From the IMG/VR virus record IMGVR_UViG_3300038435_000085, positions 1 through 36,108 of that record: a stretch of DNA of 36,108 nucleotides. One strand, written 5' to 3'. Position 1 is the stretch's first letter; the number at the start of each line of letters is the position of its first letter. A model generated the notes under the pieces. It worked only from the letters and a program-made list of their open reading frames with translations. It was not told the origin of the DNA and ran no database searches. Of the stretch, positions 761-34,338 are shown one piece after another. The DNA is from a virus. A program made the position numbers and the translations under genes.

Positions 761-1215
761 CATTTCTTCCCCGTCAAAACTTTCCCCAACTGCGTACACA
801 GCTTGGGCAATTCCGCCGCCGTATATTCGTGCAGCGGTTTCTTCAGGTAGCCGTATTTCCGCAGCCAGCTACCCAGCCTGCCCAAATCGGCATACATCCC
901 CCGCTTGTTGAGCGGAGCCGAAACAACCCAATTAAGCTGATGGCAATAGCTCAGCAGCAGCCGGTGTTGCTTGTTGGCATTGTCAAACTTTGCATAGTCA
1001 CGGTCGCCCGGCTCGGCCTCGAACGCCCACCGCTGCCCGCCCAGCCGCACTATCAGTTCATTGGCCTGGTCAAAGGTCAAATCCTTGGTGCTGCGTTTTT
1101 TCGGATCGCCCGTGTAGCACTCTATCATATCTCCCTTCAGGTCGGCATCGTTCTTCACCATGTCGGGCATCTTTATGTGGATGCTCTTTATCTGCTGGTC
1201 AGTTACACTGTGCAT
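760..1215 (-). CDS. gemA: GemA / Mu gp16-like early regulatory protein (DUF1018 family)
   Basis: A 151-residue protein with the layout of the Mu gp16/GemA family. The N-terminal part has the typical opening TDQQIKSIHIKM. A central DLTFDQANELIVRLGGQ segment follows, then a helical C-terminal half with LLLSYCHQLNWV and YADLGRLGSWLRKYG. In Mu, GemA modulates host gene expression and DNA topology; here that role is taken from the family, not shown. The gene start overlaps the end of the interrupted methyltransferase reading frame (which runs to 1199) by 17 bases. A family A palindromic element (905-926) lies in frame inside the gene and encodes part of residues VVSAPLNKRG. Family assignment is fairly firm. 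Confidence 0.8.
   Translation of the reverse strand: MHSVTDQQIKSIHIKMPDMVKNDADLKGDMIECYTGDPKKRSTKDLTFDQANELIVRLGGQRWAFEAEPGDRDYAKFDNANKQHRLLLSYCHQLNWVVSAPLNKRGMYADLGRLGSWLRKYGYLKKPLHEYTAAELPKLCTQLGKVLTGKK
905..926 (+). repeat. Family A palindromic element inside gemA
   Basis: Core TGAGCGGAGCCGA flanked by complementary arms TTGTT / AACAA. It lies in frame within the GemA-like gene. Confidence 0.7.
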
Positions 1216-2107
1216 TTCTAATCATATTATCAATTACCCTGTATATCTCATAAACCACTTGCGGCACTACGGCGTTGCCATATCCTTTGATACTTTCGTT
1301 TCGCCATTTAGAAAAGGTAATTCCGTCCAGTCCGGCGGAAAACCCATCATCTCCGCCACAAATCGGGGATTCAGTTGGGAAGTCTGTCCAGTTCTCATAA
1401 GAAAACCAATCACTGTGTGGCGGCCCTTTTGGCTGATGGGTAGCATTGAATTTTGCCCATCTTGGGATGTTGGCGTCGGCAACATCCCACTTTTTGCCAT
1501 TGTGCCTAAGTTCGTTGTCGTTTTCCCTACGTTTTTAGGATTGCCGCTCCTGACCATTCTGGCTTTCCAGTTCTGGTAATTTTCCTCTATTTCGGTTGAT
1601 TTCGGCGTGGGCAACAAACCAAACCCTTTCCCTTCGGTGCGGAGCGTTGACGCCACAAGCTGGAAGTATAAACGCTTGTACTTCGTAGCCTTCAGCCTCC
1701 AACTGAGCCTGCACCTGCTCGAATACCAGGCCTCCGTCCCAACTAACAAGGCCGCGAACGTTTTCGCCCACAACCCAGCCTGGCTGAATTTCCCGAACTG
1801 CTCTAAGCATCTCTGGCCATAGGTGGCGTTCGTCTTCCGCTCCTTTGCGGAGTCCGGCAACGCTGAAAGGCTGGCAGGGGAATCCGCCGCTGAGCACATC
1901 AACCTGCCCTCGGTGAATAGTGAAATCTGTCTTGGTAATGTCTCCATAACTTATAGCCTCTGACCAGTAATATTCAAGCAGTCGCCTTGCAAAAGGATTC
2001 CACTCGCAGTGCAGCAGGTTTTTCCAACCAACCCACTCCGCTGCGAGATCAAATCCCCCAAAACCTGCAAACAACGATGCGTGTACAATTTCTTCATTTT
2101 TGGTCAT
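1199..2107 (-). pseudogene. DNA cytosine-5 methyltransferase interrupted by an in-frame stop
   Basis: Reading from 2107, residues 1-190 carry the m5C methyltransferase motifs: FAGFGG (13-18, cofactor binding), PCQ with catalytic Cys78, ENV (115-117) and PHRRERV (156-162). Codon 191 is TAA (1537-1535). The same frame then stays open to a TGA at 1201-1199, and this second part has FPTESPICGGDDG (243-255), KWRNESIK (267-274) and motif X GYGNAVVPQ (275-283). Those features are typical of the C-terminal end of phage Dcm-like enzymes. The gene is therefore full length (302 codons) with one nonsense codon, and needs a base substitution, readthrough or a sequencing error to explain it. The enzyme would protect phage DNA from host restriction. 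A long second reading frame overlaps it (1267-1947). Confidence 0.85.
1267..1947 (-). CDS. Overlapping frame inside the methyltransferase gene, LLPTP-type protein
   Basis: A 226-codon open frame lies entirely within the methyltransferase gene, in a different frame on the same strand. It contains GFGLLPTPKS, SGMLPTPTSQD and LNPRFVAEMMGFPPDWT. I recall such text from proteins found next to, or as parts of, phage cytosine methyltransferases. M.EcoHK31I and M.AquI are known two-polypeptide methyltransferases with overlapping genes, so a second subunit is conceivable. The alternative is that this is just an alternate-frame shadow of a conserved gene; family matches seen in databases could themselves be such shadows. 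This frame stays open where the main frame has a stop. I cannot decide from the sequence alone. Confidence 0.4.
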   Translation of the reverse strand: METLPRQISLFTEGRLMCSAADSPASLSALPDSAKERKTNATYGQRCLEQFGKFSQAGLWAKTFAALLVGTEAWYSSRCRLSWRLKATKYKRLYFQLVASTLRTEGKGFGLLPTPKSTEIEENYQNWKARMVRSGNPKNVGKTTTNLGTMAKSGMLPTPTSQDGQNSMLPISQKGRHTVIGFLMRTGQTSQLNPRFVAEMMGFPPDWTELPFLNGETKVSKDMATP

Positions 2108-2120
2108 GCTACCCCTTTTT

Positions 2121-2145
2121 TGTCATGCTGCGGTATGAAGCATCT
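2121..2145 (+). repeat. Family C palindromic element
   Basis: Variant gtcatgctg...gaagcatct, with arms TGCT/AGCA, directly upstream of the methyltransferase start. Confidence 0.75.
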
Positions 2146-2174
2146 AATAAAAGGGGCGGCACAATCACCGCCCC
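2146..2174 (-). terminator. Rho-independent terminator in the early operon
   Basis: Read on the minus strand there is a perfect 7-bp stem GGGGCGG / CCGCCCC with an 8-base loop, followed by TTTTATT. It lies between gam and the methyltransferase and points with the early genes. It would reduce transcription into methyltransferase, GemA and the genes beyond, splitting early from later expression. Confidence 0.7.
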
Positions 2175-2331
2175 CGGTTTGACGTTCACGGGGCCAGAAA
2201 GGTTTGGCTACATTCTCAGACGGCAGGCTCGTCACACCTCCCGAATTTGCCAGGTTATCCAAACTGTAGCTGGCGAAACACCTCATTCTATAGGCCCCTA
2301 TTTGCATGTATATATAGGTTTCAATTTTGTT

Positions 2332-2351
2332 CACTGAGCGAAGTCGAAGTG
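2332..2351 (+). repeat. Family A palindromic element after gam
   Basis: Full copy CACTGAGCGAAGTCGAAGTG lying one base beyond the gam stop codon. The gap 2108-2351 holds this element, a terminator and a family C element; I see no convincing gene in it. Confidence 0.9.
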
Positions 2352-2879
2352 TCAATTCAACATCGCATCAACCTCTTCCCTTTTCAGATCAATGAAGAAT
2401 GTCTCATCCTGCACGATGTCTATACCCACTTCGAGGCACAGCACCTTCACCTCCGGTTTCTCGCGGTTGGCAATCAGCAGGTCTTTGGCCACCTCCTCTT
2501 TGGTTTTCACATACTCCTGGTTTTTCAACTTCAGCAGTTTCAAAATGGCTGCCCAGGTAAACCCTTTCGATGGGGTGCATTTGGGTGTTCCCGTGCGGAA
2601 ACCAACAGTGCCCTGCGTCATCTCGTAGCTCTTCTTTTTGCCAAACAAACCCCTGTTTGTTTCGAAATAGGCCTGCACCCGCTTGTAGCTCTTGGCCATG
2701 CGGTCTGTGAGCTCTTGCAGATAGGCCGCATTCTCGGCCCTTATCTGGGCCATCTGTGCATCCATCTCTGCCTGCACTTTCGTGAGCTCACTCTGATCCT
2801 GGGCATACATTGCCATTTCCTTTTCCACACCCGTCAGGTCTTGTGGGGCATCTAATGCCGGTGTTTTCTGTCTTGTCAT
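2352..2879 (-). CDS. gam: Mu Gam-like host-nuclease inhibitor
   Basis: A 175-residue protein resembling Mu Gam, which binds double-stranded DNA ends and blocks exonucleases such as RecBCD. A long charged helix (about residues 15-60, EKEMAMYAQDQSELTKVQ and onward) fits the Gam coiled coil. It is followed by the core with FETNRGLFGKKKSYE and VGFRTGTP. The start is placed at 2879 because its ATG overlaps the stop of the upstream DnaA-domain gene as ATGA; an upstream Met at 2930 would add 17 residues inside that gene. It belongs to the early operon and ends just before a terminator. The family assignment is good, the biochemical role is by homology. Confidence 0.85.
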   Translation of the reverse strand: MTRQKTPALDAPQDLTGVEKEMAMYAQDQSELTKVQAEMDAQMAQIRAENAAYLQELTDRMAKSYKRVQAYFETNRGLFGKKKSYEMTQGTVGFRTGTPKCTPSKGFTWAAILKLLKLKNQEYVKTKEEVAKDLLIANREKPEVKVLCLEVGIDIVQDETFFIDLKREEVDAMLN

Positions 2880-3355
2880 ATTGCTTGTTTTATAATTAAT
2901 TCTCTTGATTGACTGTTTTCGAGCATCCAAACCCTAACCTTATCCTTGCATCGCTCATACTGTTTCCTATACTGTGCATCCACTTCCAAGTGATCATAAT
3001 GAGCATCTCGTTGTGTCAATATAGTCGAATGATCTCTGCCGCCCATTTGATCTCCTATAAATTTCAGCGTCACCGGACAGTAATAGAGCATACACGCGAC
3101 TATCATTTTGCAGCAGTTGATGTACTCACGTTTTCTCCGCCGAGATTGTATGACTCCAACGCTCAGGCCGTGATCCTCTAAGCATATTGCCTCTATGTTG
3201 TCATACATGTTCCGCAGGCTTAATATGTCTGGCCCCGATTCACTTTTACCGTCTTCTATGAAGATTATATGCACCCGTTTTCCGGTTAATTGGGAAACGA
3301 CATTTTCCCAATCGCTTTTCAAATTGCCAATCAATTCACTGCCGAGCACCATCAT
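2876..3355 (-). CDS. DnaA domain IV-like DNA-binding protein
   Basis: A 159-residue protein whose C-terminal half has the signature of DnaA domain IV: GGRDHSTI at residues 105-112, preceded by helices of the NCCKMIVACMLYY type. This domain reads DnaA boxes in the bacterial initiator. There is no AAA+ ATPase domain. The N-terminal 80 residues are not recognised, though SRRRKREYIN (71-80) just before the domain is basic. The gene overlaps both neighbours by four bases (ATGA) in the early operon. It could recognise DnaA-box-like sites on phage or host DNA, compete with host DnaA, or act as a regulator; this is inference. The domain call itself is strong. Confidence 0.85.
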   Translation of the reverse strand: MMVLGSELIGNLKSDWENVVSQLTGKRVHIIFIEDGKSESGPDILSLRNMYDNIEAICLEDHGLSVGVIQSRRRKREYINCCKMIVACMLYYCPVTLKFIGDQMGGRDHSTILTQRDAHYDHLEVDAQYRKQYERCKDKVRVWMLENSQSRELIIKQAI

Positions 3356-3585
3356 ACCACATTGATATTAAACAGTGGATGCACCTCATTTCTCCGGTGG
3401 CTGGGCAGGTAGCATATCTCCTCGTTCAGTGCCCGCACAAAACGCTTTTCGCGTTCGGCTGCAATCTGCTCCGTCAGTTCCTTCACTGTCTTCCAGCTTG
3501 CCTCCAGTTCTTCCTGGGTGATGACATCGCCATACTCCTGCAACCGCTTTTCTATGGCCTTTAGTTTTGTTTCTGCTTCAGTCAT
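3352..3585 (-). CDS. Small coiled-coil early protein
   Basis: A 77-residue, highly charged, helical protein. Residues 1-50 (KLKAIEKRLQEYGD, ELTEQIAAEREKR) look like a coiled coil. No catalytic motif or membrane segment is visible. It overlaps the start of the DnaA-domain gene by four bases, so the two are probably made together, and a helper or partner role is possible but not shown. I do not recognise a family. Confidence 0.6.
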   Translation of the reverse strand: MTEAETKLKAIEKRLQEYGDVITQEELEASWKTVKELTEQIAAEREKRFVRALNEEICYLPSHRRNEVHPLFNINVV

Positions 3586-3588
3586 GAT

Positions 3589-4032
3589 TTATCGCAATTT
3601 GTTTACACCTTGTTTATCCTGTGGTTGTGTCTTGTGACCAACCACTCCTGCTGGTGCGAGTTTGCAACTCGTACCTTCATTCCTAATCTTATCTATCAGC
3701 ACCCTGGCAGGCCGCACCTCGAAACACGCCCGGTGCTTGATGCTCATCAACTCCTGCAAGCCTATCTGCTCGTTGCGGGTAAGGCTGTCTATATCCTTCA
3801 AACCAAGCTCTTTGTAGATGCTGTAGTTTCGCAAATCCCACTGCTGCCGCCACCATGCCCAAAACACCGGGCTGGTTATAAACTGCTGCTTCCAACTGTT
3901 AAGACTGCCCAGGCTCTTATCCAGCCAGCGGACACCCGTATCGTAGGTCTCGTCGAAATGCTCCTGGGCACTGAGCCCGGCCAGCCGCTCTATGGTGGCT
4001 TTCGCTTTTTCTAAATCTTCTCTTGTTATCAT
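3589..4032 (-). CDS. Early phage protein with repeat-derived C-terminus
   Basis: A 147-residue protein of unknown function. The N-terminal 110 residues are helical and Trp-rich (FWAWWRQQWDLRNY near residue 60), and then come VRPARVLIDKIRNE. The last 28 or so residues are encoded by two dispersed palindromic elements. One is family D, giving GTSCKLAPAG; the other is family E, giving VVGHKTQPQDK. The natural stop codon was therefore probably lost when the elements arrived, and the last part is not ancestral protein. The gene overlaps the preceding ATPase gene by four bases (ATGA). Family not recognised. Confidence 0.6.
   Translation of the reverse strand: MITREDLEKAKATIERLAGLSAQEHFDETYDTGVRWLDKSLGSLNSWKQQFITSPVFWAWWRQQWDLRNYSIYKELGLKDIDSLTRNEQIGLQELMSIKHRACFEVRPARVLIDKIRNEGTSCKLAPAGVVGHKTQPQDKQGVNKLR
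3621..3675 (+). repeat. Adjacent family E and family D palindromic elements
   Basis: Family E (3621-3645, arms GTGGTTG/CAACCAC) is followed by family D (3651-3675, arms GGTGCGAGTT/AACTCGTACC). Both lie inside the 3' end of the gene at 3589-4032. Confidence 0.85.
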
Positions 4033-4706
4033 CTCAATTTCTTTTTGTCACCCTTTAACTCCCCTCCTTCCAAAGGAGGGGCAGGGGTGGTTGTAGTGCC
4101 ATAATACTTCCCCGCCCCTTCCTCCCATATCACATACTCGCTGTTGTCATCCCTGCTGTAGCTGCTGCACACAAAAGCCTTGTAGCCCTCTATCCGCACC
4201 TTTATGCGGCAGTCACGCCATATCTTCACAGCCGTTTTGCCATCGGGCAATCTGCCGTCGGTGTGGCTCAGGTAGATAAATGTCTTGTCCGGGTACCGCT
4301 CCTTCAGCATCTTGTAGTCGGCAAAGCTCATGTCGGCATATTGCAGCGTATCTACCATCACAAACGCCGGGCTTCGCGGGGCATCCAGCACCAAGAGCAT
4401 ATCGCTCAGGTCGCCGCACATAAGCCGCATCTTGTTGCCCATATCGTCCATCCGCTCTTGCACCAGCACATTCTGTATGCTGACGCTGTGGCCCTCTTCC
4501 ATGCTGTTATACAGCACCGTCCCGAATCCGCACAGGTATTTGGCCAGTTGCATCATAAAGGTGGTTTTGCCCTGCCCAACCCCGCCATACACTATCCAGG
4601 GCTTGCCCACCTCCGGCTGCCCGAACACCTCTGCCCACTGCCCCTCGAAGCCGAACACCTTCTTCTTTTGCCGTATCAACTGTTTAGCAGTCATGGTCTT
4701 TTGCAT
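4029..4706 (-). CDS. RecA/DnaB-like P-loop ATPase
   Basis: A 225-residue ATPase of the RecA-like (AAA_25 type) fold. Walker A is GGVGQGKTT at residues 41-49. The strand FVMVDT (115-120) is the Walker B, with Asp119. FIYLSHTDGR follows as the sensor-like strand. Such proteins in phages act with replication or recombination, for example as helicase-like or single-strand-binding accessory ATPases; the precise role here is unknown. The C-terminal tail after YYGTTTT is encoded by a family B palindromic element (PAPPLEGGELKG) and is probably an addition to the original protein. It lies in the early operon between a small gene and the gene at 3589-4032, overlapping the latter by four bases. Confidence 0.75.
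   Translation of the reverse strand: MQKTMTAKQLIRQKKKVFGFEGQWAEVFGQPEVGKPWIVYGGVGQGKTTFMMQLAKYLCGFGTVLYNSMEEGHSVSIQNVLVQERMDDMGNKMRLMCGDLSDMLLVLDAPRSPAFVMVDTLQYADMSFADYKMLKERYPDKTFIYLSHTDGRLPDGKTAVKIWRDCRIKVRIEGYKAFVCSSYSRDDNSEYVIWEEGAGKYYGTTTTPAPPLEGGELKGDKKKLR
4058..4092 (+). repeat. Family B palindromic element in the ATPase 3' end
   Basis: Hairpin CCCCTCCTT-cca-AAGGAGGGG followed by the family tail caggggtggtt. It is read in frame as the C-terminus of the ATPase. Confidence 0.85.
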
Positions 4707-4710
4707 CCTC

Positions 4711-4762
4711 CGTAATTCGTCAATCGTTTTTCCTTTTTGTCATGCTGAGGTACGAAGCATCT
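4711..4762 (+). repeat. Family F remnant plus family C element
   Basis: Short TAATTCG-type repeat (4711-4728), then family C (4738-4762, arms TGCT/AGCA). They fill the gap in front of the ATPase start. Confidence 0.75.
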
Positions 4763-5031
4763 CAATCATTAGTAATCACTGCCGTTAGCCTGTCTTTTTC
4801 TCCGTGTATATTCAAGTGCCACACCTCAACCTTGCCCGGTAGCTCTTCAACTTTGTAGAATACACTGGCGGCACCCGTGCTCATTTTCCTCATGCAGTCT
4901 ATTTTGTATTGAATGCCCCGGCGTACATCTGCCAGGTCTTCGGCGTATTGAACTGACTCCCTTATGGCCGCTCTTACATTTAGCTCGTAAAAGTTGCTCC
5001 TTCCCGATTTTATATCTACTTTTAGTCCCAT
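4762..5031 (-). CDS. Small early protein, unknown function
   Basis: An 89-residue protein starting MGLKVDIKSGRSNFYELNV. It is helical in the middle (ESVQYAEDLADVRRG) and ends with a strand-rich part (KVEVWHLNIHG). No known motif, signal peptide or membrane helix is visible. It lies downstream of MuB, separated from it by a family F tandem repeat that runs into its start codon. I do not recognise it. Its position between MuB and the P-loop ATPase suggests a replication or regulatory accessory, which is a guess. Confidence 0.55.
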   Translation of the reverse strand: MGLKVDIKSGRSNFYELNVRAAIRESVQYAEDLADVRRGIQYKIDCMRKMSTGAASVFYKVEELPGKVEVWHLNIHGEKDRLTAVITND

Positions 5032-5059
5032 CGTAATTCGTAACTCGTAATTCGTAAAT
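5030..5059 (-). repeat. Family F tandem repeat in front of a start codon
   Basis: Three degenerate copies of the TAATTCG/TAACTCG unit between MuB and the gene starting at 5031. The last copy contributes the start codon context. Confidence 0.8.
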
Positions 5060-5061
5060 CC

Positions 5062-5925
5062 CTAAGCCGTTTTCTTTATCTCGATAAATATCCTCGTTAG
5101 CGATCCACCCGTTCTCCGGAACATCTCCTGCCCCGGAATTTTGCTTCCGTTGGCTGCGGCTATCAGGGCCACTTGCTTGCGGTTGAAATCTTCCAACGCC
5201 TCACGACCTTCAGGGCTTACCCGCTGGAAGCGGCCACCAAATCGACGGAATATTTCGGCGTATCCCACTTTTTTATGATCTTTATTGCGTTCTATCTTCA
5301 CCCTCAAAGCGTCTGCTCCCATCATAAACCAACCACATCGTCTTTCTGTAGCGTTCCAAAGTGCTTTAATTTCCAGAAAGGCGGGGTAATCCAGGTCTCC
5401 TGCCTCATCCAGCACCACCAATGGGGTTTTGATGCTTCGGAGGTAATACACAAGGGTTTCGTAGACATCCTTATATGTGCCCGAATTATCTACCCCAAAC
5501 TCCTTAGCTATGAGACGGATGAGATTTTGGCGGCTCTTCACCTGGCTGCAATCTATGTACACCGCATTCTTGTGCTCCCGTGCATAGTGCATACCAGCGT
5601 GGGTTTTGCCCGTGTCCGCTTCGTCACACAATATTCCGCTAATACTCCAGTCCTGGCAGGCCCCAAGTTGGCCGGTCACATATTCAAACACTTCTGTCCG
5701 TGCTGTTTTCCATGCCTCTCCTGCTCCCAGGTGTATCTCCAGCCTTCGGGCAATGCTTATCCATTTGGCGTCGCTCAGCACCTGGTCGTTGTCGCCGCCC
5801 AAGACCCTGCTCAGTTGGCTGCCGCTGATGTCAAGAGCTATGGCCATTTTGCTGGCACTCTTGTAGTTTCCCAGATGGGTTTTCAGCCCCTCGGTGATTT
5901 GTTGTTTTACTTCTGCCGTTATCAT
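5062..5925 (-). CDS. MuB-like transposition ATPase
   Basis: A 287-residue AAA+ protein resembling Mu B, which binds target DNA, stimulates the transposase and gives target immunity. An N-terminal helix-turn-helix covers about residues 20-45 (NYKSASKMAIALD, GSQLSRVLGG). The ATPase domain follows, with a Walker A DEADTGKT (101-108) and Walker B LVVLDEA (169-175). The C-terminal part FRRTGGSLTRI resembles the end of the MuB family. The start is placed at 5925 because its ATG overlaps the stop of the preceding gene (ATGA). Extending upstream to 6174 would add 83 Arg- and Cys-rich residues that merely mirror the gene in the other frame. The Walker A is slightly unusual, with Asp at the third position before GKT. 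Confidence 0.9.
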   Translation of the reverse strand: MITAEVKQQITEGLKTHLGNYKSASKMAIALDISGSQLSRVLGGDNDQVLSDAKWISIARRLEIHLGAGEAWKTARTEVFEYVTGQLGACQDWSISGILCDEADTGKTHAGMHYAREHKNAVYIDCSQVKSRQNLIRLIAKEFGVDNSGTYKDVYETLVYYLRSIKTPLVVLDEAGDLDYPAFLEIKALWNATERRCGWFMMGADALRVKIERNKDHKKVGYAEIFRRFGGRFQRVSPEGREALEDFNRKQVALIAAANGSKIPGQEMFRRTGGSLTRIFIEIKKTA

Positions 5926-6209
5926 AAATGGTTTGTTAAGATGTGTATTAATCTGAGCAGGTTTTCCCGCTCTACTTGTATCAGTTCTACCCCGTCCTTT
6001 TTTTTGTTTGGTCGCTTTATGTGTAGCCATATCTGCACAATGTCCGACTCGCGGCCATCCACCTCTATGGTACCTGCGTATTCCTGGTGTATGACATTTT
6101 CGGCACATACACCGGGCCCCTGAGCGAAGTCGGTTGGAAAGTATCTGCTCCCGGCCTCCGGTTCGCCGCCCCATTCCTTCGGGTCGTAGTTTTCGTTTTC
6201 GTGGCTCAT
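5922..6209 (-). CDS. Small protein between transposase and MuB
   Basis: A 95-residue acidic protein. It is not a recognised family, but it sits between transposase and MuB and overlaps both by four bases (ATGA at each end), so it is surely translated with them. Residues 48-95 (GTIEVDGRESDIVQIWLHIK) are strand-rich. A degenerate family A element (6117-6134) encodes residues FPTDFAQGPG near position 25. It could modulate transposition; no direct evidence. Confidence 0.6.
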   Translation of the reverse strand: MSHENENYDPKEWGGEPEAGSRYFPTDFAQGPGVCAENVIHQEYAGTIEVDGRESDIVQIWLHIKRPNKKKDGVELIQVERENLLRLIHILTNHL

Positions 6210-6279
6210 AAATTCGCTAACGCCCTCTTTTTTACATCGTCGTTGTTTTCCACCAGCACATACTCGTCATCATCCCGGT

Positions 6280-6299
6280 CACTGAGCGAAGCCGAAGTG
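6280..6299 (+). repeat. Family A element in the transposase C-terminus
   Basis: Arms CACT/AGTG and core TGAGCGAAGCCGAA, in frame, encoding about DTSASLSDRD. Confidence 0.85.
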
Positions 6300-6327
6300 T
6301 CCGGCACTATAATATCCGCAAGCTCCA

Positions 6328-6362
6328 ACTCCCCTCCTTCCCAAGGAGGGGAAGGGGTGGTT
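6328..6362 (+). repeat. Family B element in the transposase C-terminus
   Basis: CTCCCCTCCTT hairpin arm with AAGGAGGGG and the aaggggtggtt tail. It is in frame and encodes about KTTTPSPPWEGGEL. It lies 28 bases from the family A copy. Confidence 0.85.
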
Positions 6363-8209
6363 GTCTTCATTATACCAATTTTGGCCAATTCCCCCACCTG
6401 CTGCTTCTTCCGGGCGTCGAACTCGCTGACAAATTTGGCCTGCTCGGTATAGGTGTCGGCATCTTCCGCCGTCCACTCGGCTTTCGCTGTGTTGTAGGCT
6501 CCCAGCGGGGTGCAGCGGCAGATGTATTTATCCTTTTGAAACAGGTAGCACTCCTGCACTATACCCTCGCTGTTTGGCAGATAATAGGCATCTACCCCGT
6601 AGTCGTTGGTGGCCAGCTTGTCCATAACTTCCGGGCCCGGTATCTGGTATTTGTCGCCGCGAAGCGTCACATACTGGTTTCGCTGTATGCTCGTGCGGGC
6701 TTTGTAGCCGATGCTCTTGGTCACCTGTACCATCGGCACCGTTGGGGCCTTCGGGTTTTGGGTGCCCAGCAACACTTGCCAGCGGCTTTTGCCGCCGTAG
6801 CGTTTCTCGTTGCGGTGCTTGTTGTTGTTGTATTGGGCTATATCGGCCTTGTCGTCGGCCACCAGCGTTTCGTAGCTGTATCGCTTCTCTTTGTACTCAT
6901 CGTCGGCCTTCATCACGTCTATGCGGTATGCTTCGCCATGTGCCCACCAACGCCCTATGCCCTTGTGGTTTTTCTTCTCTACCTCGTACTTTTTGGCTTT
7001 ATTAAAATGCTCGGCGTGTTTCTCCTGGCTGTTGCCGGGGTTGCATATTTTCACATTCGGAAACATCAGGGCCAGATCGTCGAAGAACTTGTTCACCAGA
7101 TGGTTTTCTACCTCCACCTCCAGCGGCATACCCAACCCCTCGCGGTGTATGGTTCTAACATGTCCCGCATACAATCAAGAAACAACTCCTCGTCCTTGCT
7201 CTTGCTGTAGGCAGCACCGACCACCGCACCACTGGCAACATCATAGACATAGTAGGCCTTCACCCGCTGGCCGTTATCCATCTTGCGTGGCAGGTCTCTA
7301 TCGTCCATCGTCACCTTGCTGAAAGCATATTGCGGCTTCCGGCGGTTGTGGTGCGGGCGGTGCATTCCTTGATACTGGAACTGCCCGTTTCTCATCTTAT
7401 CTACCGTGCTCCGGTTGTCGGGCTGGTTCAGGTAGTTCCACACCGTTTGGCGGGTTATCTCTATCGGGTTGCCGTGCCCGTCCACAAAGCTCTTGGGGTC
7501 GAACAGTTCGCCGGTCTTTGTGTTAAAAAGCTCGATGTTGCCCTTCATGAATTCCGTGTACAGATCGTGCACATCCAGTGCAAAGGGCTTGTTTGGCATC
7601 GTGTAGATGCTCATCAGTAGTTGCTCCAACTGTGCCGTCACCTTCAGTTTGTTATCATTGCCATAGCCGCCATGCACCAGGGCCGCATAGCCGCACTCTA
7701 TATATTTCTCATAAGCCCGTTGCAGGCTGCGGTAGTTGGTAAATTTCTTTTGGCCGTCGTTGGTCACAGCGGCCCTCTCGGCTATCATCGGCCAGAAACC
7801 TTTCACACTGGCCCCGTGTTTGGCTCTTGCCGCTCTGTAATTTGTCCAGATAATCTCGATGGCATTAAACAGCCTTGCAGTGGCGTTGTACTCCTTTTGT
7901 CGCTGTGCCGAAATATGGTCGCCATTTGGCAGCAGATAGCCGCTGTAGAAATTCACCGCCTTGGCATCGCCCTCGGTAGCAATCGGCTGATGTGTCGGCC
8001 TCTCGTATGGGTCGCCGCACATGTTGATGATCTTAGTCTTTATCCGCTCCGGCATCGAGTCAAACTCCACCAACGCCTGCCTGCCGTTGCCGCCTGTTCT
8101 TAGTTTTTTCAAATCGCCCCGGTGTATCAGTTGGTCATAATTACTCTTAGTCACCAGTCCGCGATCTATAATCATCGCAGCCTGCACACACAAGGTATTT
8201 TGGAAATGC

Positions 8210-8942: not shown

Positions 8943-9000
8943 TTCTTTTTTCTTCCTTTGTTCCAAACAACGGCACAATATTGATTGATATTTACACAAT
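8931..9000. promoter_or_regulatory. Divergent early/repressor switch with candidate operators
   Basis: The 58-base gap between the Ner-like gene and the repressor. For the repressor there is a Bacteroidota-like promoter: -33 TTG at 8931-8933, a 19-base spacer, then TTCCTTTG (8953-8960; consensus TAnnTTTG). Candidate operators are the inverted repeats TTGTT-cca-AACAA (8958-8970) and AATAT-N6-ATATT (8977-8992). There is also a direct repeat CACAATAT at 8974-8981 and 8995-9002, spaced 21 bases or two helical turns. The early promoter on the minus strand is not clear. All assignments are by pattern only. Confidence 0.45.
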
Positions 9001-9729: not shown

Positions 9730-9732
9730 AAG

Positions 9733-10612: not shown

Positions 10613-10614
10613 AA

Positions 10615-27308: not shown

Positions 27309-27321
27309 ATACGCTGTAAAA

Positions 27322-27356
27322 ACTCCCCTCCTGTTTTAGGAGGGGCAGGGGTGGTT
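27322..27356 (+). repeat. Family B element in the late control region
   Basis: aactcccctcctgttttagg hairpin with the aggggcaggggtggtt tail, between the leftward late promoter and the protease start codon. Confidence 0.85.
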
Positions 27357-27373
27357 AGGCCCCAATTCTTTCA

Positions 27374-27440: not shown

Positions 27441-27523
27441 AATAACCTTCCCCGCTGATTCCTTAAATCCCGCCCCTATATAATGTACCCGCACGCCCCA
27501 TCTTTGTATTAGAAAGGACGGGC

Positions 27524-27582
27524 CACTGAGCGAAGTCGAAGTGATAAACCTATCAACCCTTCAACCTATCAACCCATCAACC
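27524..27582 (+). repeat. Family A element and family G tandem repeat
   Basis: Family A (27524-27543, CACT/AGTG arms) then cctatcaaccct units to the start codon at 27584. Confidence 0.9.
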
Positions 27583-27583: not shown

Positions 27584-28024
27584 ATGAGAAAACCAAACCG
27601 CGAAAAAGCCGACAACAAGGCCAAATCCGAAATAGCCTACGACCTCTTCATCAACACCGATAAGAGCCAGAAAGAAATATGTGCCCTCATCGGGTGGACA
27701 GAACGCACCTTCACCAAATACAAACGCGACGGCCTCTGGGAAGAACAGAAGTCAGCCCTCAAACTAACACCCGGCAAAATCATCCTCAACATCTACAAGC
27801 GGATGCACGAAATATCCGAAACCGGAAACCCCGATGCCGACAAGCTCATCAAACTGGCCAACACCCTCGAAAAGCTCTTAGACAAAAAGACCACCATTTC
27901 CCAGGCCATGTCCGTCTTCAAAGAATTCACCACCTTCTTGTGGGATCAAGACCCCGAATTCGCCAAGCAAAACAACATCTATCAGCAGCAGTTTGTGGAC
28001 TTAAAGATTGCATCCTATGGCTGA
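27584..28024 (+). CDS. Terminase small subunit-like protein
   Basis: A 146-residue protein with an N-terminal helix-turn-helix region (SEIAYDLFINTDKSQKEICALIGWTERTFTKYKRDG), which matches DNA-binding small terminase subunits, and a helical C-terminal half (LANTLEKLLDKKTT). It is the first gene of the rightward late operon and directly precedes terminase large subunit, overlapping it by eight bases. It would recognise phage DNA at the packaging start. Confidence 0.75.
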   Translation: MRKPNREKADNKAKSEIAYDLFINTDKSQKEICALIGWTERTFTKYKRDGLWEEQKSALKLTPGKIILNIYKRMHEISETGNPDADKLIKLANTLEKLLDKKTTISQAMSVFKEFTTFLWDQDPEFAKQNNIYQQQFVDLKIASYG

Positions 28025-29573
28025 TATCAAGCTGCGAGACATACGGGAATGGCAAGCCTTCTGCGAACAAGTGCAGAACAGCACCGGCATAGCCCCAAAC
28101 GAGTTGCCCGAAACAAAACGCCTGCGAATCGTCCGGGCCCTCAAAGAATACAACTACTTCGTCAAAACCTACTTCCCCCTCTATGCCGATGCCGACTGTG
28201 GCTACTTCCATATAGAAGCCGCCAACGCCATCGCCAAAGACCCAAACATCCTTGCCGTCCTCGAATGGCCCCGCGAACATGCCAAATCCGTCCATGCCAA
28301 TATCATCATACCACTCTGGCTCATCGCCAAAAAAGAAATGACAGGCATGATCCTCATGGGCAAAAATGGCGATGACGCCAAAAACCTCCTTGCCGACGTA
28401 CAGGCACAGCTTCAGTTCAACAACCTTTTTGGAGCCGACTTTGGCGATCAGTACAACTCCGGCTCATGGGTCGAAGGAGATTTTACAACCAAATCAGGCA
28501 TCCGGTTCCTCGGCATAGGGCGAGATCAGTCTCCCCGTGGTGCTCGTAAAAACGAGAAACGACCAAACTATGCCGTCATAGACGATATAGACGACGACAT
28601 AATCGTACAGAATCCACGCCGCGTAAAAGAAATCATCGAGCGTATATTCGGGGCCCTCTACTTTGCCCTATCCATCAAAGGAGCCCGCATGGTTGTAGCT
28701 GGCAACCGTATCCATCACAACTCGGTGCTCGCCAATATCGTCGGCGACACCAAACCCACACAACCCAAGCGGCCCGGCATCTATCACTCCAAAGTGTTCG
28801 CCACCGAAAGCCGTCACGGAATCAAAGCCACCATCGCCGAAGGAGGCACACCCGCATGGAAAGAGCGGTACACCATCGGCGAACTCGAACGCAAAATAAT
28901 CAAAGCAGGTCGCATCGTCTCCGACCGCGAATTCTATCACAACTGCACCATCGAAGGCAGCATTTTCACCGACGACCTTATCCGGTTCAAGCCCCGTCGC
29001 AAATGGCATTTCTACAATGTCATCATCGGGTATTTCGACCCTTCTTTCGAAAACAAAGTCACGTCCGACTTCAAAGCAATCCGCGTATGGGGCCTCACCG
29101 GAAATGAACGCCACTGCCTCGGCAGCTTCGTCCGCCGAACAGAATTAACAACCTGCTTCCATTGGATGATCCAATACGAGAAATCCCTGCCACCCGGCAC
29201 CGGAATCATCTGGTATGTCGAAGAGCAATTTTTCAACCGGCCAATCCGCGACGCCCTCGAAGCAGTTCGAAGCCAAACCGGACACAACCTTCGAGTCATA
29301 GTTGACAAGCGTGACAAAGAAAACAAGTATGTCCGCATCGTCAAAATGGAACCACAGTATTCCCTCGGAAACGTCTTTTTCGATCAGGAACTCATTCACG
29401 ACCCCGACATGCAGGCAGGCAACGAACAACTCAAAGGTATCGAACCCGGCTACAAAAGCCCCGACGATGCCCCCGATGCCGACGAAGGAGCATGGCATTA
29501 TCTCGACATGCACATGCCATCCCACCAATTCAAACCCCTCATCGGTGTCAAAGACCACAAATCAATGTACTAA
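28017..29573 (+). CDS. terL: Terminase large subunit (Mu gp28-like)
   Basis: A 518-residue packaging motor. A Walker A-like WPREHAKS (84-91) is followed by a Walker B strand YAVIDDIDDD, and then a nuclease domain with GYFDPSFENKVTSDFKAIRVW. Like other Mu-type terminases the P-loop has Arg-Glu instead of the usual Gly pattern. The start is at 28017 (ATG), three codons after an alternative TTG, because it overlaps the small subunit stop by eight bases. It drives headful packaging of host-flanked phage DNA. Confidence 0.9.
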   Translation: MADIKLRDIREWQAFCEQVQNSTGIAPNELPETKRLRIVRALKEYNYFVKTYFPLYADADCGYFHIEAANAIAKDPNILAVLEWPREHAKSVHANIIIPLWLIAKKEMTGMILMGKNGDDAKNLLADVQAQLQFNNLFGADFGDQYNSGSWVEGDFTTKSGIRFLGIGRDQSPRGARKNEKRPNYAVIDDIDDDIIVQNPRRVKEIIERIFGALYFALSIKGARMVVAGNRIHHNSVLANIVGDTKPTQPKRPGIYHSKVFATESRHGIKATIAEGGTPAWKERYTIGELERKIIKAGRIVSDREFYHNCTIEGSIFTDDLIRFKPRRKWHFYNVIIGYFDPSFENKVTSDFKAIRVWGLTGNERHCLGSFVRRTELTTCFHWMIQYEKSLPPGTGIIWYVEEQFFNRPIRDALEAVRSQTGHNLRVIVDKRDKENKYVRIVKMEPQYSLGNVFFDQELIHDPDMQAGNEQLKGIEPGYKSPDDAPDADEGAWHYLDMHMPSHQFKPLIGVKDHKSMY

Positions 29574-29576
29574 ACT

Positions 29577-29744
29577 ATGAATCTAAACATGCACCTATCC
29601 ATCCTGAAGACATGGGGATTAAACCTGAGCGTAATCATGCTCGACTATATAGGAAATCTCAAAGACGGAATGACCATAATACTCCTTGGTCTCACAATGA
29701 TATTCACCCTGTACAGGATTAGAAACGAACGCAAAAAACAATGA
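29577..29744 (+). CDS. Small single-pass membrane protein
   Basis: A 55-residue open frame between terminase and the gp36-like gene. It starts three bases after the terminase stop codon. The first half is amphipathic (MNLNMHLSILKTWGLNL). One membrane helix, GMTIILLGLTMIFTLYRI, is followed by a basic end, RNERKKQ. Its location, good reading frame and the following family G repeat make it likely to be a gene. Its role is unknown. Confidence 0.6.
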   Translation: MNLNMHLSILKTWGLNLSVIMLDYIGNLKDGMTIILLGLTMIFTLYRIRNERKKQ

Positions 29745-29780
29745 ACCTATCAACCTATCAACTTATAAACCTATCAACCA
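29745..29780 (+). repeat. Family G tandem repeat before the gp36-like start
   Basis: cctatcaacctatcaac units leading directly into the start codon at 29782. Confidence 0.85.
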
Positions 29781-29781
29781 A

Positions 29782-30345
29782 ATGAGCTACATCCTTAAAC
29801 GCGACTACGATCACATCATCCGGGCAGAAGTCCGCCAGATGGTGCAGGGCAATAATGACTATACGCTGAATGCAGCCGAAGTCACCGCCATAGAAATAGC
29901 CTCCGGCTATCTACGCCAGAGGTACGACGTCGCCAAAATATTCGCCGACATCCCCTCAACCCTTCAACTTATCAACCTATCAACCCCCATCGTAGAAAAC
30001 GACTATTGCCACGATGCCAACGACAATATCTACAAAGCCCTGGTTGACGAAGCCAATCCGGCCCAACTCACCGACACCGACCAATGGACGTTGAGTGATC
30101 CGCGAAACAAAGCCCTGCTCCTTTGGGTCATAGACATTTGTGTCTATAACATCCACAGCAATCTGGCTCCGCAAAACATACCACAGCTTCGGCAGAATCG
30201 CTACGACGATGCAATGAAATGCCTCCGCGAGATTCAAAAAGAAACCATCACCCCCGATCTGCCACTACTCGTCACCGACGATGTAGAAGCAACTTCTGGC
30301 ACATACACCTTCTCACCCGACACTAAAGCAACAACCAAATGGTAA
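29782..30345 (+). CDS. Mu gp36-like head-tail connector protein (DUF1320)
   Basis: A 187-residue protein with MSYILKRDYDHIIRAEVRQMV, AAEVTAIEIASGYLRQRYDVAKIF and NRYDDAMKCLREIQK, characteristic of the gp36/DUF1320 family that works at the head-tail joint. Residues PSTLQLINLSTP in the middle are encoded by a family G repeat (29955-29986) inserted in frame. The stop codon overlaps the portal start. Confidence 0.75.
   Translation: MSYILKRDYDHIIRAEVRQMVQGNNDYTLNAAEVTAIEIASGYLRQRYDVAKIFADIPSTLQLINLSTPIVENDYCHDANDNIYKALVDEANPAQLTDTDQWTLSDPRNKALLLWVIDICVYNIHSNLAPQNIPQLRQNRYDDAMKCLREIQKETITPDLPLLVTDDVEATSGTYTFSPDTKATTKW
29955..29986 (+). repeat. Family G repeat inside the gp36-like gene
   Basis: ctcaacccttcaacttatc and catcaacct-type units in frame. 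It is the only family G copy clearly within a coding region. Confidence 0.8.
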
Positions 30346-31784
30346 ACACACGCATAGGAAGAACATACGAACCATCGGCAGAAGACAAACAATCAGCCGA
30401 CCTATACCGAAAATTCAAAAAAGACCCCGTAGGCGTCTTCTCAGCCATCGTGCGTAACCAGCACAGTCAGTATAATAAAGAAATACTCACATGGAAGACC
30501 GCACGAATGGAAGCCGAAAACATCTGGCGGCCACGCCGCACCACGCTGTACGATCTGTATGACGACATCATGCTCGACGGCTACATACACGGCATCATCG
30601 AGAACAAACGCAAGCTCAAAGTAGCCAACAAGCCTTATCGTATTGTCAACGCCGACGGCGACGAAAACAAAGAAGCAACCCAACTCATCCGAACCAAATG
30701 GTTCACCGACTTCATCAAGTCAGCCCTCGACAGCCGCTTCTATGGCCACAGCCTCATCTATCTCAATGAGTTTGATGCTGCAACCCGCCGCTTCAAATCC
30801 ATCGAAACCGTCTATCGCAAACACGTTTTGCCTTGGGCAAACAAATGGATCAAACAAGAGCAGGACGAAGAAAAAGACGGCATAGACTATACACAGGCCC
30901 CATATCTGCAATACATGATCCCCGTCGGCGACACCGACAATCTCGGCCTGCTCAATCAGGCAGCACCGCTCTATATCCTCAAAAAACACTCCTGGCAAAG
31001 CTGGGACGAATTCGAAGAAATATTCGGAATCCCGATCCGCGTCGCCAAAGTAGCCAGCGGCGACCCCAAAGTGCGGGCCGAAGTTGCCGGTTGGCTCAAA
31101 TCTATGGGATCAGCGTCTTATGCCATGTTTCCGCCCGAAGCCGAACTCGAAATAACCGCCAACTCCCAAACCGACAGCTTCAACGTTTTTAACATGAAAC
31201 GCAAAGCCGCCAACGAAGAACTCGAAGTCCTTCTCATGGGCGTCCGCAACGTCTCCGAAAGCAGCGGCACCTACGGCAAGCAGCGGGCAATCCTCGAAGA
31301 GCAGGACGAAGTAGAAGAAGACGACAAGAAATTTATCCTAAACCTCGTCAACGACGAGTTGCTTCCCCGCCTCCGTGCTCATGGCTATCCAATACCCGAT
31401 GACAACCTCTTCGATTGGGAAGATGTAGATTGGGGCGATCCAGTCGAGAAAATGGTCATATACCAAAGCCTTCAGGCAATGGGTTACAAACTCGACAGCC
31501 AGCAGATCAGTGCCGACCTCGGCGTCAACATACTCGGCGAAATGACCGCCGAAGAAATGGCCGTCAAAAAAGGTGTCACCCCCGGTAGTCAGGGTGGTAG
31601 TTCCCTGAGCGGAGCCGAAGGGAAGAAAGATAAAGGGGGTAAAGCCAAAAAACCAACACAAGAGCCCTCCACCGCACCCCGCAAACCAACCGCTTCCGGG
31701 AGCGATGGCCGTCACCCTGAACTTGTTTCAGGGCCTGCACCCTCGTTATTAATGGACTTATACTTCAACAAGCACCGCAATTAA
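30339..31784 (+). CDS. Portal protein (DUF935, Mu gp29-like)
   Basis: A 481-residue protein of the Mu portal family: LYDDIMLDGYIHGIIENKRKLKV (about 68-90), FIKSALDSRFYGHSLIYLNEFD, KKHSWQSWDEFEEIFGIPIRVAK, AMFPPEAELEIT, and a C-terminal part rich in Lys/Gly/Ser. It forms the ring through which DNA enters the head. The extreme C-terminus (from about 425) is full of repeat-derived text: a family A element gives SLSGAEGK and a family C element gives GRHPELVSGP. The original C-terminus was probably altered there. Confidence 0.85.
   Translation: MVNTRIGRTYEPSAEDKQSADLYRKFKKDPVGVFSAIVRNQHSQYNKEILTWKTARMEAENIWRPRRTTLYDLYDDIMLDGYIHGIIENKRKLKVANKPYRIVNADGDENKEATQLIRTKWFTDFIKSALDSRFYGHSLIYLNEFDAATRRFKSIETVYRKHVLPWANKWIKQEQDEEKDGIDYTQAPYLQYMIPVGDTDNLGLLNQAAPLYILKKHSWQSWDEFEEIFGIPIRVAKVASGDPKVRAEVAGWLKSMGSASYAMFPPEAELEITANSQTDSFNVFNMKRKAANEELEVLLMGVRNVSESSGTYGKQRAILEEQDEVEEDDKKFILNLVNDELLPRLRAHGYPIPDDNLFDWEDVDWGDPVEKMVIYQSLQAMGYKLDSQQISADLGVNILGEMTAEEMAVKKGVTPGSQGGSSLSGAEGKKDKGGKAKKPTQEPSTAPRKPTASGSDGRHPELVSGPAPSLLMDLYFNKHRN
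31601..31624 (+). repeat. Family A variant in the portal C-terminus
   Basis: Arms TTCCCT/AGGGAA around TGAGCGGAGCCGA, in frame. Confidence 0.85.
31711..31737 (+). repeat. Family C element in the portal C-terminus
   Basis: CCCTGA/TCAGGG arms, in frame. Confidence 0.85.
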
Positions 31785-31786
31785 CA

Positions 31787-32599
31787 ATGTGCCAAATTTG
31801 CAACGATATAGTCAACTCCCCCTGGGCAGAAGCCGAGTACACAAAAATACTCCGGCAAAACAACAGCCTGTCCGAGTTTATCAAGCAACTAAGCAAGGCC
31901 AATTCCCCCCTTATTGAGGGGGGCCGAGGGGGGTTGCACCTTCTCACCGTCCAGCTAACATACCACCGCCTGCTCGACACCTTCACCAACGATGGCAAAT
32001 CCCCACTTATTGAGGGGGGCAGGGGGGTGTCACTCAAACAAAACCTCTTCACCTTCGCCGCCGCCAAAAACGCCAACTACATCAAAACCGCTTTAGTCAC
32101 CCTAAACTCGTTTCAGGGCCTCCAGCAGGTAGCCGAAGAAAAAGCCCTCCATAAACTATACTACCGCCAATTTCAGGAAGTAGAAGCCGAGCACGTCAGG
32201 CAGGTAGCCCAGGCATGGCAAAATTGGGCCGACATCGAGCGATTTCCCAATGCCAGCAAATACCTAACCTACCACACCGCAGGCGACGACCGGGTACGGC
32301 CACAACACGCCGCTTGGTCAGGCATCAACCTGTTGTCGTCAAACCCCTTTTGGAACACCCGCTACCCGCCCAATGGCTACAACTGCCGTTGCTGGGTCAC
32401 CTCCGATTTCGAACGTGCGGCGGGTCATGCTGAACTTGATTCAGCATCTCTTTCCAAATTGCCTAAACCCGATCCCGGCTTCGCCGTCAATTGGGGCAAA
32501 ACAAACTATGCCTTTCCACCCGAACACCCATATTTCAAAAATATGTCCCCAACACTTAAAAAAGAAATAGAACGACTATGGAACAACCAACCACAATAA
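31787..32599 (+). CDS. Mu gp30/F-like head morphogenesis protein with four in-frame elements
   Basis: A 270-residue protein of the F/gp30 family. The conserved C-terminal box is YHTAGDDRVRPQHAAWSG (about 163-180) with YPPNGYNCRCWV (about 194-205). It binds the portal and is needed for head assembly. Four palindromic elements sit in frame: two of family B (31901-31936, NSPLIEGGRGG; 31999-32031, KSPLIEGGRG) and two of family C (32096-32122, VTLNSFQGL; 32424-32450, HAELDSASL). All fall in the parts outside the conserved box. It is remarkable that the frame survives four times. Confidence 0.8.
   Translation: MCQICNDIVNSPWAEAEYTKILRQNNSLSEFIKQLSKANSPLIEGGRGGLHLLTVQLTYHRLLDTFTNDGKSPLIEGGRGVSLKQNLFTFAAAKNANYIKTALVTLNSFQGLQQVAEEKALHKLYYRQFQEVEAEHVRQVAQAWQNWADIERFPNASKYLTYHTAGDDRVRPQHAAWSGINLLSSNPFWNTRYPPNGYNCRCWVTSDFERAAGHAELDSASLSKLPKPDPGFAVNWGKTNYAFPPEHPYFKNMSPTLKKEIERLWNNQPQ
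31901..32031 (+). repeat. Two family B variants inside the gp30-like gene
   Basis: Copies at 31901-31936 and 31999-32031 with CCCC/GGGG arms around ttattga-like loops, both in frame. Confidence 0.85.
32096..32122 (+). repeat. Family C element inside the gp30-like gene
   Basis: CCCTAA/TCAGGG-like arms with one mismatch, in frame. Confidence 0.8.
32424..32450 (+). repeat. Second family C element inside the gp30-like gene
   Basis: TGCTGA/TCAGCA arms around acttgat, in frame. Confidence 0.85.
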
Positions 32600-32610
32600 A
32601 TACATACTTT

Positions 32611-32681
32611 GTCATGCTGACGAAGGAAGCATCTATAATGCTGGTGCGAGTTTTCAACTCGTACCCATCAACCCATAAACC
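32611..32681 (+). repeat. Family C, family D and family G elements before the tape measure gene
   Basis: Family C (32611-32635), family D (32640-32665), then atcaacccataaacc directly before the ATG at 32682. Confidence 0.85.
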
Positions 32682-34286
32682 ATGATACGCGGACTCGATT
32701 ACTACATAAACCTGCACGACCGGAGCTTCACCCGAAACATCACCAGAGCACAGGCCCAAACCGCCCGGCTCGATAGCATGTTCGCCGGACTAAGCACCCG
32801 CGTCGCCGGGGTCTTTGGGGCTTACCAGGCCGCCGCTTTTATCAAAAGCAGCACCGACACTTTCGCCCAACTCGAAGCCCTCGACGTGCGGCTCAAAACC
32901 GTCCACTCCACAACATCCGGTTATGTACAGGCAAACCGCAGTTTAAACGATATTATAACAAGGTTGAAACTACCCATCATAGAAACAACCGAAGGCTATA
33001 CCCGTATGGCAGCCGCCACACAAGGAACCAACCTCGAAGGGCAAAAGACCATAGACATCTTTCGCGGCATTTCTACCGCCGGTCGTGCCCTCAAATTAGA
33101 CCCCGTAATGGGAAATATCTTTTTATCTCTGGAGCAAATGCTCTCCAAAGGAACAGTCATGTCTCAGGAGCTTCGCCTTCAGTTGGGTAACGCCCTGCCC
33201 GGTGTCTTCCAGAGGGCCGCCGCCGCTATGGGTATGACCCAGAAACAATTCTCCAAACAAATGGAACTCGGCAACATCAAGTCTGCCGACTTTGTACCCA
33301 AGTTTGCAGCATACCTCGAAGAGTATTATAAAGACAAAATACCCGCCGCTCTTCAGGCCGTGCAGGCAAAAATGACCGAATCAAACAACGCAATCATCCG
33401 CAAAACTGCCGAGATAGGTGAGAAGGCAGCACCCGTGTATCTTAAATTTTTAGAGGTAAAACTAAAGCTGCTCGGCATCGTCGAGCGTTTGATGCCACTC
33501 CTCGAACGCTTTACCAATTTTTACGAGCGTCATTTCGATACCATCAACCGCATCGTTGGTGTCCTGGCTCTGCTCTGGCTTCGCACCAAAGCCCTCAACA
33601 TTGTGTCAATGCTATGGGCAGGCACCCTGCGAACAATCGGGCCCATTTACACAACAATGAGCAGAATATCCGCCGTTAGTATGTTATCGCAAACCAAAGG
33701 CATAGCCCTGTGGAAATCCTTTGCCCTATCATCAATTGGGCTTGTGGCCAAACGAATTGCCATACTCGGTATCGCTTGGGAGTTAATCAGTCATACACCC
33801 GAACAATGGACTAAGTATTTCAAATCAATGCTCGTTGATCTAAAAGCAATTGGTTTTTGGATAAAAGCCATCACAACCCTCGACACCAAAGCGATGGACA
33901 AGGCGATGGAGTATGGGAAAGATTTTGGCCACGTCCGACCTGACAATATGCTATTGACTGACGCCCAGAAGAAAGCGGCATCAAAAGCCAGTAGAAACGT
34001 AACATTCGATGAATTTAACGTCGCCGACTCAAAAGGGCGATATTATGATTCAATCGCCAAAAAGTTTGTCAAAAGAGCAGATGAGGGTGGATCAGGGTCT
34101 GGGTCTGGTACTGACACCGAACCAGTCACTGTATCCGCCGGTCGCTCTGTCCGCAACATATCCGTAGTGGTAAACAATAAAATAGAAGTAACCACTACCA
34201 CCATCAAAGAAGCTGGCATACAGGTAGCCCGCACCCTGCAAGACCAACTAAACCGTGCCGTCCTCGATTTCGAGGCAGCATTATAA
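32682..34286 (+). CDS. Tail tape measure protein
   Basis: A 534-residue protein. The N-terminal 250 residues look like the tape measure N-terminal domain: TFAQLEALDVRLKTVHSTTSGY, AAATQGTNLEGQKTIDIFRGIS, LSLEQMLSKGTVMSQELRLQLGNALPG. Two or three hydrophobic helices lie at about 290-320 (VGVLALLWLRTKALNIVSMLWA) and 350-370 (IGLVAKRIAILGIAWELI). It should set tail length; at about 1.5 angstrom per residue this means a tail near 80 nm. Its place in the rightward operon, away from the sheath, tube and chaperone genes, is unusual. Confidence 0.8.
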   Translation: MIRGLDYYINLHDRSFTRNITRAQAQTARLDSMFAGLSTRVAGVFGAYQAAAFIKSSTDTFAQLEALDVRLKTVHSTTSGYVQANRSLNDIITRLKLPIIETTEGYTRMAAATQGTNLEGQKTIDIFRGISTAGRALKLDPVMGNIFLSLEQMLSKGTVMSQELRLQLGNALPGVFQRAAAAMGMTQKQFSKQMELGNIKSADFVPKFAAYLEEYYKDKIPAALQAVQAKMTESNNAIIRKTAEIGEKAAPVYLKFLEVKLKLLGIVERLMPLLERFTNFYERHFDTINRIVGVLALLWLRTKALNIVSMLWAGTLRTIGPIYTTMSRISAVSMLSQTKGIALWKSFALSSIGLVAKRIAILGIAWELISHTPEQWTKYFKSMLVDLKAIGFWIKAITTLDTKAMDKAMEYGKDFGHVRPDNMLLTDAQKKAASKASRNVTFDEFNVADSKGRYYDSIAKKFVKRADEGGSGSGSGTDTEPVTVSAGRSVRNISVVVNNKIEVTTTTIKEAGIQVARTLQDQLNRAVLDFEAAL

Positions 34287-34301
34287 TTTGTCATCCCCTT
34301 T

Positions 34302-34338
34302 GTTTCCCCCCTTTTTAGGGGAGATTAAGGGGGGTGTA
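34302..34338 (+). repeat. Family B variant between tape measure and gpG-like genes
   Basis: tgtttcccccctttttagg hairpin with the gagattaaggggggtgt tail. Confidence 0.8.

Follow-up and report, generated by a model that had tools for sequence, protein, structure and literature searches.

Insertion sequences of the IS200/IS605 family insert into the lagging-strand template, so that their orientation records the direction of replication (PMC5371812). Among the transposases associated with repetitive extragenic palindromic (REP) elements, the REP-associated tyrosine transposases (RAYTs), those of Bacteroidetes in TnpA-REP subclass 2.6, or RAYT group 5, have atypical flanking structures (PMC6006769). 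The CGTC class of REPs, a superfamily that includes some Rickettsia palindromic elements (RPEs) and is known in Bacteroidetes, lacks a dedicated transposase, and the movement of these elements is an open question in the literature (PMC3733652); a text search of that paper found neither "phage" nor "leading" at the start of any word. Here we analyse the IMG/VR virus contig IMGVR_UViG_3300038435_000085, whose entire length of 36,108 bases is called the window, and the short palindromic elements of families A to E that it carries in a single orientation. This uniform orientation is part of a wider phage pattern.

Both strands were scanned with family patterns, using dinucleotide shuffles as the chance level. 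The + strand contained 15 copies of A, nine of B1, six of B2, nine of C, five of C2, seven of D and four of E, that is, 55/55 pattern-defined hairpins on + and 0 on -. Shuffles gave an expectation of 0.00 for A, B, D and E and of at most 1.35 for the C types (C2, - strand), and three D matches on - were the same palindromes in reverse reading. A looser scan added five A copies whose cores are shorter or variant (905-926 and around 18718, 22986, 24562 and 26300), all on +; its matches on - had no flanking stem. This brings the number of elements to about 60 (A about 20, B 15, C 14, D 7, E 4), in agreement with an earlier note that had counted by eye about 61 in five families, all in + orientation and starting at 905. 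Repeated 14-mers, examined without any family pattern, formed 927 direct pairs versus 4 inverted pairs. The flanks of the copies are unrelated to one another. The simple-repeat families TCGTAATT and CTATCAACC, scattered over window positions 731-19568 and 13688-34962, also occur on the + strand only. A further A-like match (6113-6132) was rejected as due to chance: its hairpin is incomplete and its counterpart in the related contig L249 is ordinary MuB coding sequence. The elements are as follows.

905-926, +, A (TTGTTGAGCGGAGCCGAAACAA), looser scan
2330-2351, +, A, pattern scan
6278-6299, +, A, at the C-terminal end of the MuA reading frame; absent from the L249 counterpart
11730-11751, +, A, in-frame within a gene
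13706-13731, +, A, at a stop codon
15637-15658, +, A, occupying the loop position of a C element
17480-17505, +, A, immediately after B1
17776-17799, +, A, immediately after B1
18033-18056, +, A, pattern scan
18712-18736, +, A-like, variant core CTGAGCCTGTCGAAG, looser scan
19221-19244, +, A, in-frame in the baseplate hub gene
22982-23004, +, A-like, variant core CTGAGCTTGTCGAAG, looser scan
23129-23152, +, A, pattern scan
23700-23723, +, A, pattern scan
23953-23976, +, A, at a stop codon
24558-24580, +, A-like, variant core, looser scan
24917-24940, +, A, adjoining a stop codon
26297-26319, +, A-like, variant core, looser scan
27520-27543, +, A, between divergent genes
31602-31623, +, A, in-frame in the portal gene, sense
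8234-8260, +, B1, pattern scan
11107-11133, +, B1, pattern scan
12855-12881, +, B1, pattern scan
17452-17478, +, B1, pattern scan
17748-17774, +, B1, pattern scan
20072-20098, +, B1, within a tail gene
31711-31737, +, B1, in-frame in the portal gene, sense
32096-32122, +, B1, in-frame in the Mu F-like gene, sense
32424-32450, +, B1, in-frame in the Mu F-like gene, sense
2122-2147, +, B2, pattern scan
4739-4764, +, B2; the L249 copy has A nested in its loop
11145-11170, +, B2, pattern scan
13645-13670, +, B2, pattern scan
21369-21392, +, B2, followed directly by D
32611-32634, +, B2, followed by D; sense
4057-4094, +, C, common to L249
6327-6364, +, C, common to L249
9731-9768, +, C, at the junction of repressor gene and late block
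10578-10615, +, C
15623-15681, +, C, interrupted by A
16425-16462, +, C
20855-20895, +, C
24344-24384, +, C
27321-27358, +, C
20202-20238, +, C2
26122-26158, +, C2
31900-31936, +, C2, sense
31996-32030, +, C2, sense
34301-34336, +, C2, sense
3650-3675, +, D (RAYT-linked REP)
17992-18017, +, D, pattern scan
19473-19498, +, D, pattern scan
19505-19530, +, D, head-to-tail with D at 19473-19498
21393-21418, +, D, pattern scan
22679-22704, +, D, pattern scan
32640-32665, +, D, in the rightward gene block
3621-3645, +, E, pattern scan
12042-12066, +, E, pattern scan
20777-20801, +, E, pattern scan
24800-24824, +, E, pattern scan
4708-4735, +, simple repeat of TCGTAATT type, clean empty site in L249

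The window genes run leftward up to 27.3 kb, with the exception of the repressor, and rightward starting at 27.6 kb, as the earlier note described. Gene direction flips at 27.5 kb, so that elements are antisense to the leftward genes but sense relative to the rightward ones; transcription is therefore excluded as the cause of their orientation in this phage, which bears out the same note. Several elements are in-frame within genes for virion proteins (portal, Mu F, baseplate hub). The GC skew is negative along the full length (-0.08 to -0.40) and strong (-0.23), with -0.18 for + and -0.28 for - open reading frames (ORFs), and the AT skew reverses with gene direction. So strong a skew might favour a mutational or compositional effect, in which strand-biased substitutions leave only one orientation recognisable. 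However, A and C are G-rich on a C-rich strand, contrary to the skew, and the near-zero number of chance copies in the shuffles, together with exact copies shared with unrelated genomes, refutes this explanation, to which we give next to no chance.

Other phage contigs were gathered by exact A, B1, B2, C and D patterns, related contigs were merged and elements masked, and the strand of A and B elements was compared per cluster with skew and local gene direction; high-GC viral contigs with A matches were excluded from the statistics. Elements of A and B occupied the C-rich strand in 31/39 independent clusters with usable skew (binomial p = 3e-4), with the caveats that elements within one cluster are not independent and that single-copy clusters are noisy. 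All seven clusters with at least four copies were uniform (30/0, 0/8, 7/0, 0/6, 0/6, 0/5 and 4/0), and all seven had their elements on the C-rich strand. In the unrelated phage L029+L053, copies of A, B1, B2, D and E likewise have a uniform orientation. The strand-specific process envisaged in the earlier note, replication or insertion into single strands, thus holds insofar as the strand of the elements, here and in other phages, can be predicted from GC skew, itself a signature of replication, whereas causation is something that we infer.

The same comparison bears on the idea that transcription or an RNA function fixes the orientation, as for REPs situated downstream of genes. Elements are indeed antisense to the main gene direction in most phages, and A copies between co-directional genes are all sense in chromosome G235. 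Nevertheless, the rightward arm largely refutes this idea for the window, the antisense rule is also broken by L267, L055 and L052, and 27 discordant elements obey the skew rule without the antisense rule versus 2 that do the reverse. L267 has equal skew in both ORF classes (-0.257/-0.254) and elements 7/0. We therefore regard a transcriptional cause as very improbable.

A second group of phages (L264, L267, L272, L277, L281, L291 and L299; GC 0.43-0.57) has a strong skew and many same-way elements, with gene directions mixed in several members and an additional GTCATTCCC...GGGAATCC family. In L040, L046 and L052, A copies sit within larger terminator-like inverted repeats between genes, and the L052 copy is inverted with respect to that of L046 once flanks are aligned.

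Comparison with relatives shows that the elements are mobile, because some sites are filled in one genome and empty in another, and insertions occur nested or in-frame. Contigs L248 and L249 align with the window at 77-87% over 3.7-9.7 kb. L249 and the window have C copies in common, with a B1 copy beside one shared C, and differ in a B2 copy in MuB that is absent from the window, in a window A copy absent from L249, in a B2 whose loop contains a nested A, and in a clean empty site for the TCGTAATT repeat; all these filled-site and nested insertions share one orientation. Aligned relatives are shorter or different at the element position in the hub and Mu F genes, and no relative aligned across the portal elements. 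The window also lacks an insert of ca. 0.7 kb that separates MuB from MuA in L249 (about 3600-4330). The syntenic relatives L031-L033, with terminases 60-69% identical and the same divergent layout, contained 0 pattern matches at one substitution and, at two, a single weak A-like match in L031.

These relatives are pertinent to selection after insertion, whereby the elements would serve as one-way signals (packaging, Chi-like protection from exonucleases, fork protection) and wrong-way copies would be lost. Several families hold G-rich one-way motifs (for C, AGGAGGGGCAGGGGTGG) and orientation tracks the replication axis, both of which speak for this explanation. Yet the same pressure would be needed on at least three unrelated families plus two simple repeats, in unrelated phages, and the syntenic relatives live essentially without copies, so that we consider it unlikely.

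Families A and B2 share a core, CTGA-x-GAAG, and the A/B core corresponds to a CTGA-hairpin-GAAG in which the loop is GNA and the stem covaries. Among 167 distinct A copies, the two positions outside the core, the first two of an outer stem, were paired in 140/167 and 156/167 (shuffled means 55 and 62), and this outer stem uses several pair types. B2-type copies with an outer stem have a loop of the form S-GNA-S' in 29/35, the closing pair swapping between C-G and G-C, versus GNA in 8/104 of those without a stem. GNA loops closed by C-G form unusually stable DNA mini-hairpins, d(GCGAAGC) being the type case. The complement of such a loop would read TNC, and the sequences thus point to a structure relevant on one strand, a signature of folding as single strands. 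In the D hairpin, a G-T pair of the top strand becomes A-C on the bottom strand. Standard DNA folding energies separate the strands for D only, since they take no account of tandem G-A pairs or of GNA loops.

The same families occur in bacterial chromosomes in other arrangements. In G215 and G179, A copies are mostly inverted pairs spaced 35-60 bp; in G096, B1 copies form head-to-head dimers ca. 51 bp apart; D copies are found in both orientations; and in G235, A copies follow gene direction wherever both neighbours are co-directional, with no clear replichore bias. A confinement to one strand was absent from G009, G096, G228, G303, G414 and G415. An apparent replichore segregation in complete chromosomes was dropped, as the full listing shows inverted pairs. 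Given these pairs, dimers and gene-following copies, the confinement is not a general property of the elements; both orientations were seen in the host-type chromosomes tested, and equal numbers of both were not found in phages, so that confinement to one strand is a phage-specific pattern. The chromosomal A and B pairs, 35-60 bp apart, resemble REPINs, whereas the many-copy phage genomes have no pairs.

The presence of these families in Bacteroidota chromosomes could also mean that the elements were gained by a prophage, with the orientation imposed by the host fork, or that a single ancestral cluster was copied around the genome. Mu-like phages, however, integrate in either direction, the copies have unrelated flanks, and the host-type chromosomes lack the strand confinement. 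Both variants appear decidedly improbable.

Only family D could be connected to a transposase. D-type hairpins adjoin RAYT genes in G009, G001, G004, G008, G006 and G007, and two RAYT genes of G009 are flanked by D copies. In D-bearing genomes, RAYTs of at least 64% identity mostly had D-type hairpins alongside, and those of at most 58% had other hairpins or none detected, except for L350 (47%), with a degenerate D-like copy. The D-linked RAYT (181 aa; motifs HIH, WQ and YIHNNP) matches Pfam Y1_Tnp PF01797 (E = 1.2e-7) and, weakly, E. coli TnpA-REP 4ER8, and its SHIH and YIHNNP motifs are close to those of subclass 2.6 (PMC6006769). Family D is thus a REP tied to one clade of IS200-like RAYT in Bacteroidota, and the protein fits TnpA-REP subclass 2.6, or RAYT group 5. 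D hairpins flank such genes in several genomes, as in that group, whereas the phage copies have no transposase, are singletons or head-to-tail, and take one orientation only; D starts with GCTG, and a GTAG/GGAG 5' tag is absent. The link to RAYTs raised in the earlier note stands for D, and no transposase could be tied to A, B, C or E; no C or E copies adjoined the Y1_Tnp loci examined.

Family B, in turn, fits the CGTC class (PMC3733652). Its ATGC-type copies show the traits of that class, a CGTC, TGTC or CCTC tag, an 8-9 bp stem starting with AT and a loop of 4-5 nt, as exemplified by the copy at 17452 (CGTC-ATGCTGAA-CTCGT-TTCAGC); some B copies are tagged GGTC or AGTC, and CACCC-type copies have a shorter stem. 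Like CGTC elements, B has a GTC tag (mostly CGTC/TGTC), an 8-bp stem starting with AT, a 5-nt loop, a short tail, copies within genes and no known transposase. Unlike them, the phage copies keep a strict orientation, and head-to-head dimers, which prevail in that class, are absent from the window, although present in chromosome G096; C and E do not fit. Family A starts with GGTCA, GGTAG or GGTAC and has an outer stem of 2-6 bp, and its GNA core is common to B2.

The window belongs to a Mu-like phage of Bacteroidota, so called because its gene content includes a MuB-like ATPase and a MuA-like transposase. It also encodes an S24-type repressor, a major head protein, a sheath-like DUF2586 protein, terminase, Mu portal, Mu F and tape measure, and two gene regions are relevant here.

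5062-8217, -, MuB-like ATPase and MuA-like transposase (two overlapping frames), gene annotation
27584-35522, +, late genes (terminase, portal, Mu F, tape measure), with elements in sense orientation

The two MuA frames (6206-7174 and 7108-8217) might reflect a frameshift error, decay or a programmed frameshift. A collagen-like tail fibre gene contains a 228-bp unit three times in tandem (14203-14886). In L249, the repressor gene is directly adjoined by a phage-end-like region (7905-8222; window counterpart 35537-35845), which in the window is separated from the repressor by the entire late block (9731-35530), a C element marking the junction; this means either that modules were relocated at a repeat or that the join was made by the assembly. 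Three tandem 12-bp units (TGTAAGCCCAAC / CTATGCCCAACT), possibly transposase-binding sites, occupy the same place with differing sequence in this phage end (window 35733-35769, L249 8110-8146). Searches with terminase, portal and sheath recovered neither the host nor a closer complete relative.

Our best explanation, with a probability of about 0.58, is that these are host-derived REP-type mobile hairpins targeted to one strand via one-directional phage replication, by enzymes that the host supplies. REP-type hairpins (D as the RAYT-linked REP, B and with it A as CGTC-like, C and E unplaced) would have reached the phage genome from its host, and would have inserted into one particular strand, exposed or marked by the replication fork, which would result in a single orientation. 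For D the inserting enzyme would be a host IS200-like RAYT of subclass 2.6 / group 5; the other families may use the same RAYT or other single-strand enzymes. The cause with the best support is a strand preference linked to replication, whereas the biochemical step, with a single-stranded DNA substrate and an enzyme of host origin, is what we infer. Mu replicates mainly from the repressor end. Because the L249 repressor abuts a region that bears three 12-bp repeats and is conserved at the window's right end, a fork moving leftward is suggested, in agreement with the skew provided that G predominates on the leading strand.

Several points weigh against this explanation. The true host genome was not found. 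The phage records tested contain no Y1 transposase gene, while such genes are present in most host-type genomes, and neither a RAYT nor any other enzyme for insertion was linked to families A, B, C and E. Nor are the element families confined to one strand in those bacterial chromosomes that were tested. Eight phage clusters, each with 1-3 copies, disagree with the skew, and the phage contigs were collected by exact patterns, with skew only a proxy for replication direction. The two families of one-way microsatellites are not obvious transposons and are hard to explain by transposition. Finally, the comparison with IS200/IS605 (IS608, ISDra2) is mixed: orientation tracks the replication direction indicated by skew and the hairpins have strand-specific features, but the phage elements contain no transposase, and their 5'-tagged strand coincides with the C-rich strand, which by usual skew is the leading-strand template. 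On the simplest reading this is contrary to IS608, and either the complementary strand is active or a different process is at work.

A broader proposal, that a replication-coupled single-strand activity of Bacteroidota inserts several unrelated hairpin families, including CGTC-type ones, one-way into phages, with the GNA-loop hairpin as the mark, is one that we advance tentatively, at somewhat less than even odds. Movement of REPs by RAYTs is hard to follow in chromosomes, where copies are often paired, and phages with dozens of one-way singletons offer a clean record of the insertion strand. With close relatives providing filled and empty sites in a small genome, the process could be observed as it happens and, if the explanation is true, element orientation could reveal the replication direction of uncultured phages.

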